In this document: positions 2,608-24,352 of the stretch, in pieces
Numbering within the stretch: the stretch's first letter is position 1
Layout of the letters: each line of letters starts with the position of its first letter
From: Pseudomonadota bacterium
GTDB taxonomy: Bacteria > Bdellovibrionota_C > UBA2361 > OMII01
Direction: 5' to 3'
Assembly (NCBI GenBank): GCA_900299035.1
Contig: OMIG01000107.1
Coordinates: 1-39,553 of the forward strand
Length of the DNA stretch: 39,553 nucleotides
Made by a program: the position numbers and the translations under genes
The notes under the pieces: generated by a model
Databases searched by the model: none
The model's input: the letters and a program-made list of their open reading frames with translations, nothing else
Told to the model about the DNA's origin: nothing

Positions 2608-3759
2608 ATGTCAGCAGTACTCAAGCTCGTTCAACAGCCGAAGTTTAGCGAACAGGTCGAGGTAGGCCTCGATACCCATTCGCGCCACGGGCACTCACTT
2701 CAGACTGCGCTCTCGTACCTGTCGCTCTGGCAGCCGTCGGTCCTTAGTCACGTGATCGAGCGCTTCTCGGCGAAAGGCAACACGGTTCTCGACATGCACT
2801 GCTCGGCGGGCTCTGCCGGAGTAGATGTGCTCTCGCTCGGCAGGCACTTCGTTGGCTGTTCAAACGATCACGGCCTCGTAAAGCTCGCGAGGGCCAGAGT
2901 CAACCCCGCGGACCTCGCAGAGGTAGTGTTGCGGCTCCAGTTCATAAACCTTAAGCGGCCGGTGGATGTGCGCGGATTCCAGGCGCCATGGCCGGTCTTC
3001 TACGATGTCGACACGTACTGTGAGTTGATGAACCTGAAGAGCGCTCTTCGGGGCTCGGCAGATAGGGTTGATGAGTTCCTCTGTTTCCTCGTGGCGGGGA
3101 TTCTTCACGGTCACACCACTGCGCACCTCACGGGCTACTCATCTCCCGAGGCAGCGCTCTCGCCCGAGGCCCAAGCAGCGCTCAATCGCAAGCGTTCAGA
3201 GGTGCCGTCGTACCGCGCAGTGAGCCCGCGCGTGATTAAAAAGGCGGCTTCTGTTCTTCGAGACGGCATCCCATCTGCGCTCCTCGACCGCGCTCTTGAG
3301 CGGTCGGTGTTGCATGCGGAGCCCAACAACTTAGGCGGAGTGAAGACGGGCAGTATAGACCTGGCGCTTCTCTGCCCAGAACAGCCAGGTGGTATCGAGC
3401 ACGGTCTTCGCTCCTGGCTCCGTTCGTGGTGGCTCGGCTTGGAGCTGCCGGGAGAGAGGACTGTTCCCGCCAGCATTGAGGCTTGGCAGGACGGCATGAG
3501 CGAGCAGCTGCTCGAGGCGGCGCGCGTTGTGCGGCGCGGCGGAAGAGCGGTGGTTCGCGCGGCAACAGGCCGACTCGGCACAAAGCCCGTCAACTACCGT
3601 GAACAGGTAACCCAAGTTTTGCAGTCCTGTGTTCCAGCCTACTGGCAGGTCGAAGGAACGATCGTTGAGCGCTACGCGAAGAGTGGCAGCGCAGTCAGGG
3701 GCGCCGCAGGCGCTGCGCGCGATGCAGCGGCTGAGCTTGTAGTTCTTAGGCGCAAGTAG
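2608..3759 (+). CDS. DNA-methyltransferase-fold protein with degenerate catalytic motifs
   Basis: A 383-residue protein that aligns by eye to SAM-dependent DNA methyltransferases of the N4/N6 amino-MTase type. It has an upstream HSLQTALSYLSLWQP block, then an IERFSAKGNTVLDMHCSAG block matching motif I (usually VLDPFCGSGT), then LGRHFVGCSND. A central FLVAGILHGHTTAHLTGY region resembles the ILHG segment of some family members. The SAM-binding F-x-G-x-G is altered to H-C-S-A-G. The position expected for motif IV (S/D-P-P-Y) reads ALLCPEQPGG, so Pro-Tyr is lost. An active DNA methylase is therefore doubtful; it may be a regulatory or DNA-binding relic. The start is ATG 2608 with only a weak upstream purine run. 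Family placement is by pattern recognition. Confidence 0.6.
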   Translation: MSAVLKLVQQPKFSEQVEVGLDTHSRHGHSLQTALSYLSLWQPSVLSHVIERFSAKGNTVLDMHCSAGSAGVDVLSLGRHFVGCSNDHGLVKLARARVNPADLAEVVLRLQFINLKRPVDVRGFQAPWPVFYDVDTYCELMNLKSALRGSADRVDEFLCFLVAGILHGHTTAHLTGYSSPEAALSPEAQAALNRKRSEVPSYRAVSPRVIKKAASVLRDGIPSALLDRALERSVLHAEPNNLGGVKTGSIDLALLCPEQPGGIEHGLRSWLRSWWLGLELPGERTVPASIEAWQDGMSEQLLEAARVVRRGGRAVVRAATGRLGTKPVNYREQVTQVLQSCVPAYWQVEGTIVERYAKSGSAVRGAAGAARDAAAELVVLRRK

Positions 3760-3982: not shown

Positions 3983-5404
3983 ATGTTTTCAGCTAAGATT
4001 TCGCGCATCATCTTGTCGGTCGCCTCCGCTGGCGCGGGCAAGTCGGCCATTACGCTCGGCCTGATGGCAGCCCTCCGCAAGCAGGGCTTAAGTGTTTCGT
4101 GCTGCTTGAGCGGTGAGTCCTGGAGGCAGGCGCCGCTCTTTACGCGGCTTAGCGGACGCAGCGCCCGGGTATTAGACCAGGCAATTCTCAATCCTGAACA
4201 CCTGCGTCTCGCGCTCTGCCAAGCTTCTCTTGGCTCAGATGTTGTCATCGTAGAGGGGCACCAGCTTACACAGCAGGAAGGGGAGGGTGCAGCAGGTCAG
4301 AGCAGCGACGCGTACCTGGCGGCTCTGACGGGCACTCCGATCGTCCTGGTGGCCGACTTCAGCCTTGAGCCAACACTGGCTTTTGGGCTGGTGGCAGACA
4401 TGCTCAGCCGTCCAGGGACGCCGCCGATTGCAGGAATCATAGCCAACCGAGTGCCCGATGCCTTCGACGTGGAGCTGCTGCGGAATCGGCTGCGAGACGG
4501 CGGATTGCCGCCGCTGCTCGGAGCGGTGCCAGAAGATCCGCGGTTGTCAGGCTTTCCTTCTGCGGAGCTGCCGCAGCGCGCGGGCAGTGTCTCCTTGCCG
4601 CCGACGTTCCTCTCAGAGGCTGGCGGTTTGATCGATCACTGCGTTGATCTTGAGGCGCTCTTAGGAGTCGCTTCCAAGGCCGAACAGATTCAAGCGGAGG
4701 GAGATGCCCCGCAGACAGCCGGACGTACCTGCCGCTTCGCCGTCAGTGACGACATCTGCTTCAATGTGAGCTACCCCGATAACATCGATCTGCTCAGGCT
4801 CGCTGGCGCGTGGATCGTGCCGTTTTCTCCGGTTGCCGATAGCAAGCTGCCGCAGCAGATTGATGGGATTTACCTGACGAACGCTTTTCTGCACGAGTAC
4901 GGGGCGGACCTGGCGCGCAACGAGCACATGCACCGGGCTATCAGGCAGTTCGTGGACGGCGGTGGTGTGGTGTACTCTGAGGCTGCGGGCTCAGCGTTTC
5001 TCTGCCGTTCCTTCCAGCTTGAGCCAGGTGGCGAGAGGTTCCAAGGTGCAGGCGCCATTCCCGCTGAAGCTGTTGCTGCGCAAGATGGCCAGGCGTACTG
5101 CTTCTCAGCTGACCTAGTAGACGACTCGGTGCTTGGCATGACAGGAGTGTCGGTGCGTGGCCGGAAGCTCGGTGAGTGGTCGCTCGGTGCGGCGCTCGTG
5201 GGAGCCGTGGGCCGCCTACCCACGGCGATGCGCATCCATACCCCATTGGGAGGGGCTTTGCTCGAGGGGTACTCGGCATCGGCGCAGTCGTTCAATACCT
5301 TCGAGCTCCTGCACTTCGGAGCATCGCCGGAGGTAGCGAGGGCCCTCGTCGAGGCGGCCCAGGTGGTGCAGCGGGCACGGAATCGCGCAAGCCGCCGCGA
5401 TTGA
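3983..5404 (+). CDS. CobB/CbiA-fold protein lacking the glutaminase cysteine
   Basis: The protein matches cobyrinate a,c-diamide synthase (CobB/CbiA) over its length. The N-terminal P-loop ATPase carries SVASAGAGKSAIT near residues 10-22. DVVIVEGHQL and PIVLVADFS follow, then a class-I-glutamine-amidotransferase-like half with CFNVSYPDNIDLLRLAGA and VPFSPVADSKLP. The nucleophile motif, normally Y-A-E-C-G-G, reads Y-S-E-A-A-G, so the catalytic Cys is gone. The C-terminal Y-L-H-L-H-F-G equivalent reads F-E-L-L-H-F-G, with one His lost. Glutamine-dependent amidation is thus unlikely unless ammonia comes from elsewhere. I chose ATG 3983 over GTG 3947 because GAGGGG (3971-3976) sits 6 nt upstream and homology starts there. 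No other cobalamin gene or B12 riboswitch is in the window, so a cobalamin role is uncertain. Confidence 0.75.
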   Translation: MFSAKISRIILSVASAGAGKSAITLGLMAALRKQGLSVSCCLSGESWRQAPLFTRLSGRSARVLDQAILNPEHLRLALCQASLGSDVVIVEGHQLTQQEGEGAAGQSSDAYLAALTGTPIVLVADFSLEPTLAFGLVADMLSRPGTPPIAGIIANRVPDAFDVELLRNRLRDGGLPPLLGAVPEDPRLSGFPSAELPQRAGSVSLPPTFLSEAGGLIDHCVDLEALLGVASKAEQIQAEGDAPQTAGRTCRFAVSDDICFNVSYPDNIDLLRLAGAWIVPFSPVADSKLPQQIDGIYLTNAFLHEYGADLARNEHMHRAIRQFVDGGGVVYSEAAGSAFLCRSFQLEPGGERFQGAGAIPAEAVAAQDGQAYCFSADLVDDSVLGMTGVSVRGRKLGEWSLGAALVGAVGRLPTAMRIHTPLGGALLEGYSASAQSFNTFELLHFGASPEVARALVEAAQVVQRARNRASRRD

Positions 5405-5473: not shown

Positions 5474-7159
5474 ATGTCGAAAGAAGTATCAGGCAACACC
5501 AAAGGCCTCGCTCCCTCCGAGCTCAAGGCCGTCCACAAGCTCTTCTCGCGGTCGCTCGGCGCGCAAGAAATCGTGTCGCTCGATGTCGCGCGTGAGATGA
5601 CGTTGCTCGCCGAGAGGCTGCGGCGCCGAATCGGAATACTAGTCGATCGCCAGGGACACATCGTCGAAGTGGTGCTCGGAACCAAGGACATCCTGTACCT
5701 GCCTGACCTCGGCCGTTACCGGCTCGGCCGCGGCCGCTTGAGGACGTTGCGGCTGGTCTTTACCGATCTCTCAAAGGAGAGCGACGACGCAACGATTCCG
5801 TACGACATTTACGCCGACTTGGAGCGGCTCCGATTCGACGCGGTGGTGAGCCTGCGTGGCGGGAAGAATCGTGTCTCGATGTCGTACGCCTACCTGGTGC
5901 CGGCTAACCGCAGCGAGGGGGCTGCGGTCATGACCGAGCAGGTGCGCGACATCGGTGCGTTTGAGATGGACTTTCGGGAGTTCATCGACTCCGTCGAGCG
6001 TAGCCTCGCCTCTGAGGTTGCGCAGCTCGACGCGGGCGACAGCGTGGGTGCCGTCGTGGTGGGAGTCTACGATAAAGACGACGACCCGGAGGCCTCGCTC
6101 GCTGAGCTGCGCGAGTTGGCGCGTACTGCTGGAGTAACCATCGTTGACGCGGTTGTGCAGCGCCGCAAGCCAGACCCCAAGACCTTCATTGGCAGCGGAA
6201 AGCTTGAAGAGCTCGTCATCCGCTGCATCAGGCTCGGCGCGGACATGCTGATCTTTGACACGGAGCTCAAGCCGTCGCAGTGGCGCGCCATCACCAACTC
6301 GACCGAGCTTAAGGTGATCGATCGGAGCATGCTGATTCTCGACATCTTTGCGCAGCGTGCAGGCAGCGCCGACGGACGCCTGCAGGTGGAGCTGGCCCAG
6401 CTCAAGTACAACCTTCCCCGCCTGGTGGAGAAGGACGCGGGCCTGTCGCGACTGAGCGGAGGCATCGGTGGCCGGGGTCCGGGAGAAACGAAGCTAGAGA
6501 TCGGCCGTCGCCGCATCCGTGATCGCATCGCAGATATCGAGCGCAGGCTGGAGAAGGTCAAGGAGTCGCGAGACTTCCGCCGGACCAGGCGCCGAGAAAA
6601 CAAGGTGCAGCTCGTCTCTATCGTTGGCTACACCAATGTTGGTAAGTCGACCCTCTTCAACGTGCTCACCAATAGCTCTGTCACGGCGGAGAATAAGCTC
6701 TTCGCCACGCTTGACCCGAGCCAGCGAAAGCTCTACGTGCCGCCGTCTAAGCCCGAAGCCGACGGTGGCGTGGGCAGGATGGCGATTGTGAGCGACACGG
6801 TAGGGTTCATTCGCAAGCTGCCGGTGGAGCTTGAGACCGCTTTCCGCGCAACCCTTGAGGAGCTGTACGAGGCCACGCTTCTTGTGCACGTGGTTGATGC
6901 GTCTGACCGCGACGCGCTCGGCAAGTACCGGGCGGTTCGACGCATCTTGGAGCAGATGAGCCTGGCAGATGCGCCTGAGCTCGTCGTGCTCAACAAAGTC
7001 GACCGTATTTCGGAGGCTGAGGTGCTCTCTCTCAAGGCTGAGCTTCCCGGTGTCGCTGTGTCAGCAGTCAAGAAGATCGGGCTGGGGGAACTGCTCGCGG
7101 AGATCGACGCCCGGCTTCCGCGGGTAACGCCCTATGGCGCCGCGCTGCCGTTGCCCTAG
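5474..7159 (+). CDS. hflX: GTPase HflX
   Basis: A 561-residue HflX-family GTPase. After an N-terminal extension of about 180 residues comes the HflX core: ELARTAGVTIVDAVVQRRKPDPKTFIGSGKLEEL, then DRSMLILDIFAQRA and the Gly-rich LSGGIGGRGPGETKLE linker. A coiled region with ERRLEKVKESRDFRR precedes the G domain: G1 GYTNVGKST at 385-393, G3 DTVGF from 441, G4 NKVD from 507. HflX binds ribosomes, can split 70S particles and helps rescue stalled ribosomes after stress. The N-terminal extension makes it longer than the E. coli protein, a form known in other lineages. The gene is convergent with the metallo-hydrolase at 7188 with only 28 nt between stops. Confidence 0.95.
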   Translation: MSKEVSGNTKGLAPSELKAVHKLFSRSLGAQEIVSLDVAREMTLLAERLRRRIGILVDRQGHIVEVVLGTKDILYLPDLGRYRLGRGRLRTLRLVFTDLSKESDDATIPYDIYADLERLRFDAVVSLRGGKNRVSMSYAYLVPANRSEGAAVMTEQVRDIGAFEMDFREFIDSVERSLASEVAQLDAGDSVGAVVVGVYDKDDDPEASLAELRELARTAGVTIVDAVVQRRKPDPKTFIGSGKLEELVIRCIRLGADMLIFDTELKPSQWRAITNSTELKVIDRSMLILDIFAQRAGSADGRLQVELAQLKYNLPRLVEKDAGLSRLSGGIGGRGPGETKLEIGRRRIRDRIADIERRLEKVKESRDFRRTRRRENKVQLVSIVGYTNVGKSTLFNVLTNSSVTAENKLFATLDPSQRKLYVPPSKPEADGGVGRMAIVSDTVGFIRKLPVELETAFRATLEELYEATLLVHVVDASDRDALGKYRAVRRILEQMSLADAPELVVLNKVDRISEAEVLSLKAELPGVAVSAVKKIGLGELLAEIDARLPRVTPYGAALPLP

Positions 7160-21236: not shown

Positions 21237-21375
21237 TCCGCTAAGCCTAAACCAGCGCTATGGCTCTGGCACTCCCCAAAAAGAGCGGCCAATTGGCTCG
21301 CCGCAGCGTATCGGCAACATTCCGGCCACAGAGCTTGAGTTTTAGCTCGGCCTGCGCTACCTCTTTCGACCAGCA

Positions 21376-21463
21376 ACCCAGGGGAGGCCAGCAGTTTGGC
21401 CTGAGACGCTCATGACGGGCGAGACCCTTTGAACCTGAGACGGATAATACCGGCGTAGGGAGA
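21376..21463 (+). promoter_or_regulatory. TPP riboswitch (THI element)
   Basis: The conserved TPP-riboswitch core is present in order: AGGCC/GGCCT stem (21385-21389 with 21398-21402), CTGAGA (21401-21406), ACCCTTTGAACCTGA (21424-21438), CGGATAATACCGG (21441-21453), then GCGTAGGGA. It binds thiamin pyrophosphate. The 3' end runs straight into AGGGAGAGG, which is also the Shine-Dalgarno of the receptor gene, and ATG follows 6 nt after the aptamer. Ligand binding would thus hide the ribosome site, giving translational repression when TPP is plentiful. The exact P1 pairs are not certain by eye. Confidence 0.93.
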
Positions 21464-21469
21464 GGAATC

Positions 21470-23611
21470 ATGTTCGGCCTTGCATTTTTCTTTAGGCGCG
21501 TGCCGCGCTCGACCGGCTTCTCATTAGCTACTCTCGTGTTTGGACTCCTTTCGCCGCTAGGAGACCAGCCAGCTGCCCAAGAGCTCGACTACTCACAAGA
21601 CCAGCCAGCCACAGAGCTCTTCATCAACGGCGCGCCATTTCAGGCGCCCCTGATCGATGTGCCAGAGAGCGCGACGGTGGTTCAGGAAGAGCGCATGATC
21701 GAGAAGGGAGAGAACAACTTCCAGAACGAGATCGAGGCGATTCCCAACATGATGTACTCCGGAGGAACCTCGCGCCCTCGCTTCTTGCTGATTCGCGGAA
21801 TAGGAGAAGTTGAGCAGTACGAGGGGGCTCCCAACCCTTCAGTGGCCACCATCATCGATGACATAGATTTTAGCGGCCTCGGCATCGTGGCGCCGATGTT
21901 CGACGTCGAGCAGGTGGAAGTCTTGCGCGGTCCGCAGGGCATCCGCTTCGGCTCAAGCGCCCTGGCCGGCGCGCTCAACGTTCGTTCGCACAACCCGACC
22001 GAGTTCACGACAGGGCGCCTTGAGGTGATGGGAGGCAACGACGACCTGCTCGCCGGCGGCGTTGCTGCCGGCGGCGCCGTGCCCGGCAGCGACGGCAAGC
22101 TACAGCTCCGCATCTCGGCATTCACGACGCAGAGCGACGGCTTTCGGCACAACCTGTACTACGACCGCTACAACACCAACCAGCGCGATGAGTCGATCCT
22201 GCGTCTCAAAGCCCGGTACCGGCAGTCAGGCAGGCTCTGGTACGACCTCGCGCTGTGGGGAACACAGGCGAGCAACGGCTTCGACGCATTCGCTATCGAC
22301 AATTCCCGCAACACGCAGTCCGACCGCCCCGGCCAGGACGCGACCCAGTCACGCGCCGGCTCATTCAAGATAACGTCGCGCCTCTCAAGCGCCACAAAGC
22401 TGGAAGCGATCACGACAGCCGCCCGGACGCGCATCAACTACAGCTTCGACGGCGACTGGGGCAACAACCCGTTCTGGGCTCCGTACGACCCGTACGACTA
22501 CTTCTCCGACTCCAGCAGAGTGAGACGAATGGTGGCGGAAGAGCTGCGCTTCAGCTCCGATGACCCGCTCTACGAGCACGGCGAGAAATGGCGATGGATC
22601 GGGGGAGCCTACTTCCAGCGACTGACCGAGGGCACGTCCACCACCGAGTCCTCAAACGGCGAGCCGTACGACTACCTCAAGAGCGACTACGCTGCGAACC
22701 AGGGCTCAGTGTTCGGCGATGTGGAGATGCCGCTCGGGGGCGGCGCGAGCCTCTCGACAGGCTTGCGTGTGGAGCAGCGTGGAGCGAGCTACTCAGACAC
22801 CACCGGGTCCGAGTTCACTCCGAACTACACCATGCTCGGCGGGGCGGTGACCCTGCAGCAAGATGTAACCGAGTCGTTGCGCAGCTACGCCACCGCGTCA
22901 CGTGGCTACAAGGGCGGTGGCTTCAACGCTGGACCGAGTGTGCCGTCGCAAGATCGACAGTACGACCCTGAGTACCTGTGGAACCTCGAGGTCGGGCTCA
23001 AAGGCGTATTCATGCAGCGGCGCCTCGAGACGAACCTCGCAATTTTCCACGACCTGCGCCAAGACACGCAGCTCAAGTTTGCGATCCAGGACAATCCCGA
23101 TGACCCGCTGTCTTTCACGTACGTGACAGACAGCTCTGGGCGCGGACAGAGCACAGGCCTGGAGCTTGAGAACGCCTTTCATGCCACGCCGTGGCTCGAC
23201 CTCTTCGCGTCGGGTTCGCTCATGGCTTCTGAGTACACGCAGGTGCCGAGTGCCGCGCAGTACCTTGAGGGGAGGGCGTTTTCGTACGCCCCGCCGTACC
23301 AGTACTCCGCCGGCACCCGTATGCTGCTGGGCGGAGGGGCGTTCCTGCGCATCGAAGAGACCGGCAAGGGGAGCTACTACTTCGATGATTCCAACGACCA
23401 GAAGAGCAACGCGTACAACCTCTTCAATGCCACCCTCGGGTGGGAGCATGAGGGGCTCAAGGTTCTCCTCTGGAGCAGGAACCTCTTTAACCAGGTGTAC
23501 GCGGTGCGGGGCTTCTACTTCGGAAACGAGCCACCCGACTACCCCAATAAGCTCTACATCCAGCAGGGTGACCCTCGTGCGTATGGAGCAACGGTGACCT
23601 ACGTTTTTTAG
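21470..23611 (+). CDS. TonB-dependent outer-membrane receptor, probable thiamin uptake
   Basis: A 713-residue TonB-dependent receptor. A signal peptide (about residues 1-38, ending near QPAAQ) precedes a plug domain (VPESATVVQEERMIEKG, FLLIRGIGEVEQYEG, VEQVEVLRGPQGIRFGSSALAGALNV). A 22-stranded type beta-barrel follows, ending YGATVTYVF; the terminal Phe is the usual barrel-assembly signal. Such receptors import scarce ligands across the outer membrane using TonB energy. The TPP riboswitch directly upstream and the PnuT-like permease downstream argue that the ligand is thiamin or a thiamin precursor. No TonB, ExbB or ExbD gene is in the window. Confidence 0.93.
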   Translation: MFGLAFFFRRVPRSTGFSLATLVFGLLSPLGDQPAAQELDYSQDQPATELFINGAPFQAPLIDVPESATVVQEERMIEKGENNFQNEIEAIPNMMYSGGTSRPRFLLIRGIGEVEQYEGAPNPSVATIIDDIDFSGLGIVAPMFDVEQVEVLRGPQGIRFGSSALAGALNVRSHNPTEFTTGRLEVMGGNDDLLAGGVAAGGAVPGSDGKLQLRISAFTTQSDGFRHNLYYDRYNTNQRDESILRLKARYRQSGRLWYDLALWGTQASNGFDAFAIDNSRNTQSDRPGQDATQSRAGSFKITSRLSSATKLEAITTAARTRINYSFDGDWGNNPFWAPYDPYDYFSDSSRVRRMVAEELRFSSDDPLYEHGEKWRWIGGAYFQRLTEGTSTTESSNGEPYDYLKSDYAANQGSVFGDVEMPLGGGASLSTGLRVEQRGASYSDTTGSEFTPNYTMLGGAVTLQQDVTESLRSYATASRGYKGGGFNAGPSVPSQDRQYDPEYLWNLEVGLKGVFMQRRLETNLAIFHDLRQDTQLKFAIQDNPDDPLSFTYVTDSSGRGQSTGLELENAFHATPWLDLFASGSLMASEYTQVPSAAQYLEGRAFSYAPPYQYSAGTRMLLGGGAFLRIEETGKGSYYFDDSNDQKSNAYNLFNATLGWEHEGLKVLLWSRNLFNQVYAVRGFYFGNEPPDYPNKLYIQQGDPRAYGATVTYVF

Positions 23612-23773: not shown

Positions 23774-24352
23774 ATGTCACAAGCCTTAGAGATAGCCGGG
23801 GCTGTCCTCGGCCTGGCCTACCTCGTGCTCGCCGTAGCGAGGCGCTGGTGGGCCTGGATTCCGTACATCTTGTCATCGGCGATCTATTTGCCAGTTTTCT
23901 GGGCGAGCGGCTTCGTGTTCAACGCGCTGCTCCAGCTCTTCTTCGTTGGGATGGGAGTTCACGGACTGTCGCAGTGGAGGCAGGAAGGCGAGGTGGTGGC
24001 GCCGGTGCAGTGGCCGGTAGCATGGCACGCCTGGATAGTGACGGTGTCGTTGGCCCTCTCTGCTCTCTTGGGGTGGGTTGCCGCTCCCGAGGGCCTGAAC
24101 GCAGTCACGTTCGCGGACTCTACGATTACTGTGTGCAGCGTAGTGGCGACCTACCTGACGGTGAAGCGGGTGCTTGAGAACTGGGCGTACTGGCTCCTGA
24201 TAAATGCCTTGGCAGCGTGCACCTTTGCGGCGCAGGGCCTCACGGTAACGGCATGGCTCTACGGTGCGTACGGGCTGCTCTGCGTCTCAGGACTAATCGC
24301 GTGGCGACGAGCAGCACCGACAGTGAATAGGGCAGGCTCCCCCTCGTCGTAG
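23774..24352 (+). CDS. pnuT: PnuC-family permease, probable thiamin transporter PnuT
   Basis: A 192-residue inner-membrane protein with about six to seven hydrophobic segments. It shows the PnuC-family pattern: RRWWAWIPYILSSAIYLPVFW, FNALLQLFFVGMGVHGLSQW and a C-terminal YWLLINALAACTFAAQGLTVTAWLYGAYGLLCVSGLIAWRR. PnuC proteins carry vitamin-like compounds by facilitated diffusion coupled to intracellular phosphorylation; PnuT members carry thiamin and often sit next to TPP-regulated TonB receptors. The gene follows the receptor by 162 nt and has no riboswitch of its own, so read-through is likely. GGAGTGAGG lies rather far before ATG 23774. No thiamin pyrophosphokinase gene is adjacent. Confidence 0.85.
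   Translation: MSQALEIAGAVLGLAYLVLAVARRWWAWIPYILSSAIYLPVFWASGFVFNALLQLFFVGMGVHGLSQWRQEGEVVAPVQWPVAWHAWIVTVSLALSALLGWVAAPEGLNAVTFADSTITVCSVVATYLTVKRVLENWAYWLLINALAACTFAAQGLTVTAWLYGAYGLLCVSGLIAWRRAAPTVNRAGSPSS

Follow-up and report, generated by a model that had tools for sequence, protein, structure and literature searches.

C0, a protein of 473 amino acids encoded at positions 3983..5404 (+) of the window (the whole 39,553-nucleotide stretch of DNA analysed here), derives from CobB, the cobyrinate a,c-diamide synthase, and belongs, as judged from sequence comparison, to a phylum-level family of CobB-fold proteins that have neither the catalytic Cys nor the catalytic His. Its likeness to CobB is one of ancestry and not of working, as C0 is predicted to be non-amidating and no longer a glutamine amidotransferase. 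The best explanation, to which we give somewhat better than an even chance, is that C0 is a neofunctionalised, non-amidating CobB-fold protein that partners the methyltransferase-like protein C1, encoded directly upstream, as a regulator or a scaffold. No described Cys-less CobB and no described CobB-methyltransferase pair were found in a literature search that covered few subscription journals.

The C0 reading frame starts with ATG and is uninterrupted. Two Pfam domains, AAA_26 (1.6e-8, 35.1 bits; cut-off 27) and GATase_3 (3.3e-10, 40.4 bits; cut-off 27), are found in C0, and both Pfam and the AlphaFold (AF2) model, which is confident (pLDDT 92.2, pTM 0.91), divide the protein into an N-terminal P-loop amidoligase domain and a C-terminal GATase_3 domain. 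The NCBIfam CobB model PRK01077 matches residues 7-394 (5.7e-50). The three family matches bear out the original prediction that C0 aligns with both halves of CobB. The top PDB matches of the model in Foldseek are CTP synthase, GatD, HisH and P-loop folds of the ParF/MinD type, as is expected for the CobB architecture. With 170.4 bits, C0 of the window does not reach the curated NCBIfam CobB score of 254 bits. Three of its Cys-less relatives (L018, L022 and L017) exceed it, scoring 265.8-268.8 bits, so automatic annotation would name them CobB.

The residues on which CobB chemistry depends were compared in an alignment of 51 rows, consisting of 24 members of the C0 clade and 27 canonical CobB proteins. 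The original prediction had reported an intact P-loop, a nucleophile motif E-C-G-G that reads E-A-A-G and a Leu in place of one His of the C-terminal motif, and all three readings hold. The P-loop is SAGAGKS (residues 15-21; 4025..4045, +), and its Lys (Lys20 in C0) is kept in 15 of the 16 clade members from the order of the window, in none of the eight from other orders and in 27/27 canonical proteins. The former nucleophile motif is E333-A334-A335-G336 (4979..4990, +), preceded by Ser; its Glu333 is invariant (24/24 in the clade and 27/27 in canonical CobB), and the Cys at position 334 is found in 0/24 clade members versus 27/27 canonical proteins. The commonest replacement of this Cys in the aligned clade is Gly (21/24), while Ala is the window's own version. 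Leu442-Leu443-His444 (5306..5314, +) stands where canonical CobB has H-x-H, and His442 is present in one of the 24 clade members and in all 27 canonical proteins. The catalytic dyad of GatD is C94/H189 (PMC5871853), and His189 falls on the first His of H-x-H when GatD is aligned with a profile of CobB glutaminase domains; hence Leu442 marks the loss of the catalytic His, and His444, the second His, is kept. Two further changes lie outside the dyad: Ser46 (4118..4120, +) replaces the invariant Asp of the canonical GPD[YF]xD motif (Asp in 27/27 canonical and 1/24 clade proteins), and Arg394 (5162..5164, +) replaces the invariant His of the canonical RGHEFHYS motif (His in 27/27 and 0/24, respectively). 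A sequencing error or frameshift is rejected as the source of the missing Cys. The open reading frame is intact, and an error is very unlikely because the Ala334 codon (GCT, 4982-4984) would have to change at two or more bases to encode Cys and because the Cys is missing from every relative in the lineage. Cys341 (codon 5003-5005), seven residues past the nucleophile position, is conserved in 23/24 clade members and variable in canonical CobB, and may have acquired a function in the clade. As a compensating Cys it was set aside, as it is seven residues off the nucleophile position.

C0 homologues were sought in 46 genomes of the window's class, and a search of the phylum gave the same 46. At E<=1e-20 they are present in 27/46 genomes, with one further, more distant homologue. 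When named genomes were scanned, a single-protein query returned no matches and an alignment query returned matches; the named lineage members are uncultured metagenome-assembled genomes labelled 'Deltaproteobacteria bacterium' or 'bacterium'. The original prediction proposed to survey whether Ala replaces Cys in all close homologues: the Cys is lost in all of them (Gly, Ala or Ser in 27/27), while the replacing residue is mostly Gly. The nucleophile motif is ECGG, with the Cys, in all 51 CobB proteins examined from other lineages. In a tree made without the P-loop and nucleophile columns, a single branch with an SH-aLRT value of 100 splits the clade from canonical CobB. Early in this phylum-level lineage, a CobB gene would have lost the Cys and His of the dyad together with conserved substrate-side residues.

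The same lineage uses B12 and does not make it. Proteins with a B12-binding domain are found in 44/46 lineage genomes, CbiC in 0/46, and CobS in 3/46, none of which belongs to the order of the window. A GATase_3 scan of the window's genome and its class relatives detected no second full-length protein of the CobB/CobQ type, so the intact second CobB in the host for which the original prediction proposed to look was not found; the remaining matches are short frames of about 110-330 amino acids, which by their length alone were taken for small amidotransferases of the HisH/PdxT type. Because CbiC and detectable intact CobB/CobQ are missing from the lineage genomes, C0 does not serve B12 biosynthesis. 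With the dyad lost lineage-wide and no intact CobB/CobQ detected in these genomes, the earlier judgement that a glutamine-dependent amidation is improbable stands. So does the earlier statement that no cobalamin gene or B12 riboswitch is nearby, as the window holds no cobalamin gene besides C0, and the sole riboswitch found in it is a TPP riboswitch (21370-21478, 58.9 bits). The latter precedes an open reading frame for a TonB-type receptor (21470-23611), which is followed by a PnuC/PnuT-family gene (NMN_transporter, 23774-24352), and the three probably constitute a thiamine uptake operon.

The neighbor that probably matters most to C0, and that was missed in the original prediction, is the co-encoded C1, a methyltransferase-fold protein of 383 amino acids (2608..3759, +). 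C1 of the window matches PDLC03325, the PADLOC MTase_II model for type II DNA methyltransferases, at 1.4e-28 and scores 23.2 bits in Pfam, below the cut-off of 26.7; intact C1 relatives match PDLC03325 at about 1e-104 (4e-104). The best Foldseek match of C1 is Trm11, which is a weak match, and the fold comparison fits either a DNA or an RNA target. Intact C1 relatives carry VLDPFCGRGTT as motif I and SPPF as motif IV, which in the window read VLDMHCSAG (2785..2811, +) and CPEQPG (3373..3390, +), respectively. The motifs (DPFxGRGTT and SPPF) are intact in most C1 members of other orders, mixed in the window's order and both altered in all 10 members of the window's genus. Among C1 of the window, L031-L039 and L176, which have both motifs replaced, most carry a new conserved motif, xPxQPG, in place of SPPF. 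In the C1 tree, a long branch (1.56 changes per column) leads to the clade of the window's genus and ends in short tips, a pattern of fast change followed by constraint. Despite its replaced motifs, the protein is strongly conserved within the genus. C1 is present in 38/46 lineage genomes, including 20/20 of those of high quality. In L182-L189, the closest C1 relatives outside the lineage, the motifs are intact and a CobB neighbor is missing, and a CobB-C1 pairing beyond the lineage was therefore rejected.

C1 lies directly upstream of C0 at 23 of the 26 testable loci, which come from many families, or at 24/27 if G029 is counted; in G013, G038 and G039, the two genes are not adjacent. The gap between them is 12 bp or less in several families (0-12 bp, with one 4-bp overlap) and about 220 bp from C1 to the ATG of C0 in the window, where the two genes may therefore not be co-transcribed. 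C1 is present in every one of the 27 genomes that carry C0, versus 11 of the 19 without C0 (Fisher p=0.0003, a value that ignores kinship and genome incompleteness). At several C1 loci C0 is gone without a remnant, which indicates that C1 can work without C0. The reduced genome G029, which measures about 1.2 Mb, has C0 located 6 bp downstream of C1 (L164/L190, G029:C46), and both are diverged: C0 is without P-loop or Cys, and C1 is without the methyltransferase motifs. Profile comparisons identified the two with 97.4 and 99.0% probability. No other indirect sign of joint action by the two proteins, independent of their original chemistries, is as strong as this retention of the pair with neither active site. 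The gene hflX (5474..7159, +) follows C0 in the window and is near the pair in 19 loci; it is probably a neighbor and not part of the pair. At another locus (L169 2350-8727, G023:C42), an open reading frame of 2125 amino acids adjoins C1 at the place expected for C0 or hflX. The locus was not classed as a defence system because the CobB-like proteins have no PADLOC match and the locus is syntenic and vertically inherited.

C0 of the window is 46% identical to C0 of the sister G002, versus 84-90% for C1 and HflX, and dN/dS in this comparison is about 0.22, versus 0.05-0.09 for the neighbors of C0, with synonymous sites near saturation. This fast change may reflect relaxed constraint or adaptation. 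It also favors the view that C0 is a decaying relic on its way out, without a selected function in the organism of the window, as do the C1 loci from which C0 has vanished. We consider this unlikely, given that the open reading frame is intact in essentially all C0 carriers, that dN/dS remains below 0.25 where measurable, that the P-loop Lys and Glu333 are retained, and that the operon-like pairing persists across families, even in the genome of 1.2 Mb.

CobB amidates acetate side chains. If the glutaminase half of C0 were dead, its N-terminal half could still amidate a carboxylate with ATP and free ammonia, and the carboxylate might belong to a base that C1 has modified. The P-loop Lys kept in the window's order and the partial retention of E91/D98 are in line with such an ammonia-dependent amidoligase, for which human carbamoyl phosphate synthetase 1 (CPS1) offers a precedent: its GATase domain is without the Cys (Ser294), yet the domain is kept, and the use of ammonia is retained (PMC4655335). 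Against it stand the loss of the GPD[YF]xD Asp and the RGHEFHYS His, the loss of the P-loop Lys in all eight other-order relatives, the loss of Asp98 as well in the window, and the missing B12 pathway, so that we regard it as improbable. On account of the lost GPD[YF]xD acid, RGHEFHYS His and other-order P-loop Lys, the earlier suggestions that C0 uses free ammonia or acts as a ligase on another substrate are likewise weakened. A corrinoid-binding role, in which the CobB fold was kept to bind cobalamin or its precursors, for sensing or transport in B12-dependent non-producers, would agree with the B12-binding domains in nearly all of these genomes, the absence of CbiC and near absence of CobS, and a fold shared with an enzyme whose substrates are corrinoids. 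We hold this role to be very unlikely, as the replaced residues of GPD[YF]xD and RGHEFHYS are the most conserved of canonical CobB outside the nucleotide site, and the window is without a B12 riboswitch.

We instead propose that C0 is probably an ATP-binding subunit of regulatory or structural kind. The gene order suggests its partnership with C1, and we further infer a physical complex, a role for ATP and a nucleic-acid target. Points against the partnership are the C1 loci that have lost C0, the separated genes of G013, G038 and G039, the faster change of C0 between the window and G002, and the gap of about 220 bp in the window. The C0 gene would have come to share an operon with C1, a gene of the nucleic-acid-methyltransferase fold, early in the lineage, and the two proteins may form a complex in which C0 is the non-amidating partner that regulates or scaffolds C1. 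With its P-loop kept, C0 of the window's order would serve as a switch that binds ATP. Where other orders have an active-looking methyltransferase, C0 has lost the P-loop Lys and would, as a subunit, contribute structure or specificity. The earlier suggestion of an ATP-dependent regulator, here taken as working like ParA/MinD, is compatible with the window's order, where 15/16 members keep the Lys; in the other orders 8/8 have lost it. Because the methyltransferase motifs of C1 have changed too in the window's genus, the complex there would probably attach to nucleic acid and not carry out ordinary N-methylation. A more specific proposal, that C0 and C1 make up a phylum-specific, ATP-gated machine for binding DNA or RNA, or for modifying it in a different way, whose methyltransferase is non-canonical in some branches, is possible but doubtful.

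Known systems resemble the pair in part. CobB/CbiA share with C0 the P-loop amidoligase domain followed by GATase_3, homology over the whole length and the invariant Glu before the nucleophile position; unlike them, C0 is without the Cys, the catalytic His, the GPD[YF]xD Asp and the RGHEFHYS His, occurs in a lineage without a cobalamin synthesis pathway and has C1, of the methyltransferase fold, as its paired gene. GatD of MurT-GatD, which is grouped with CobB/CobQ, has the same GATase fold (Foldseek TM 0.65), and its Cys94/His189 can be aligned with C0. However, GatD is an active glutaminase subunit, whereas both dyad residues are replaced in C0. CPS1 differs in that it retains its synthetase sites and uses ammonia, while C0 has also lost synthetase-side residues. 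The N6/N4 amino methyltransferases described by PDLC03325 are like the intact C1 relatives, which carry DPFxGRGTT and SPPF; C1 of the window's genus differs from them in that both motifs are replaced and its gene is syntenic and vertically inherited, not mobile.

The Cys-less relatives that pass the curated CobB score are a likely source of false predictions of B12 synthesis. The C0-C1 pair offers a clear test case of two enzymes becoming a non-enzymatic or re-tasked complex, since the relatives span the range from an intact methyltransferase to the loss of both active sites. C0 has probably been put to a new use, and in this phylum-level lineage the fold of a cobalamin enzyme persists past the loss of its chemistry, tied to a methyltransferase-fold gene.
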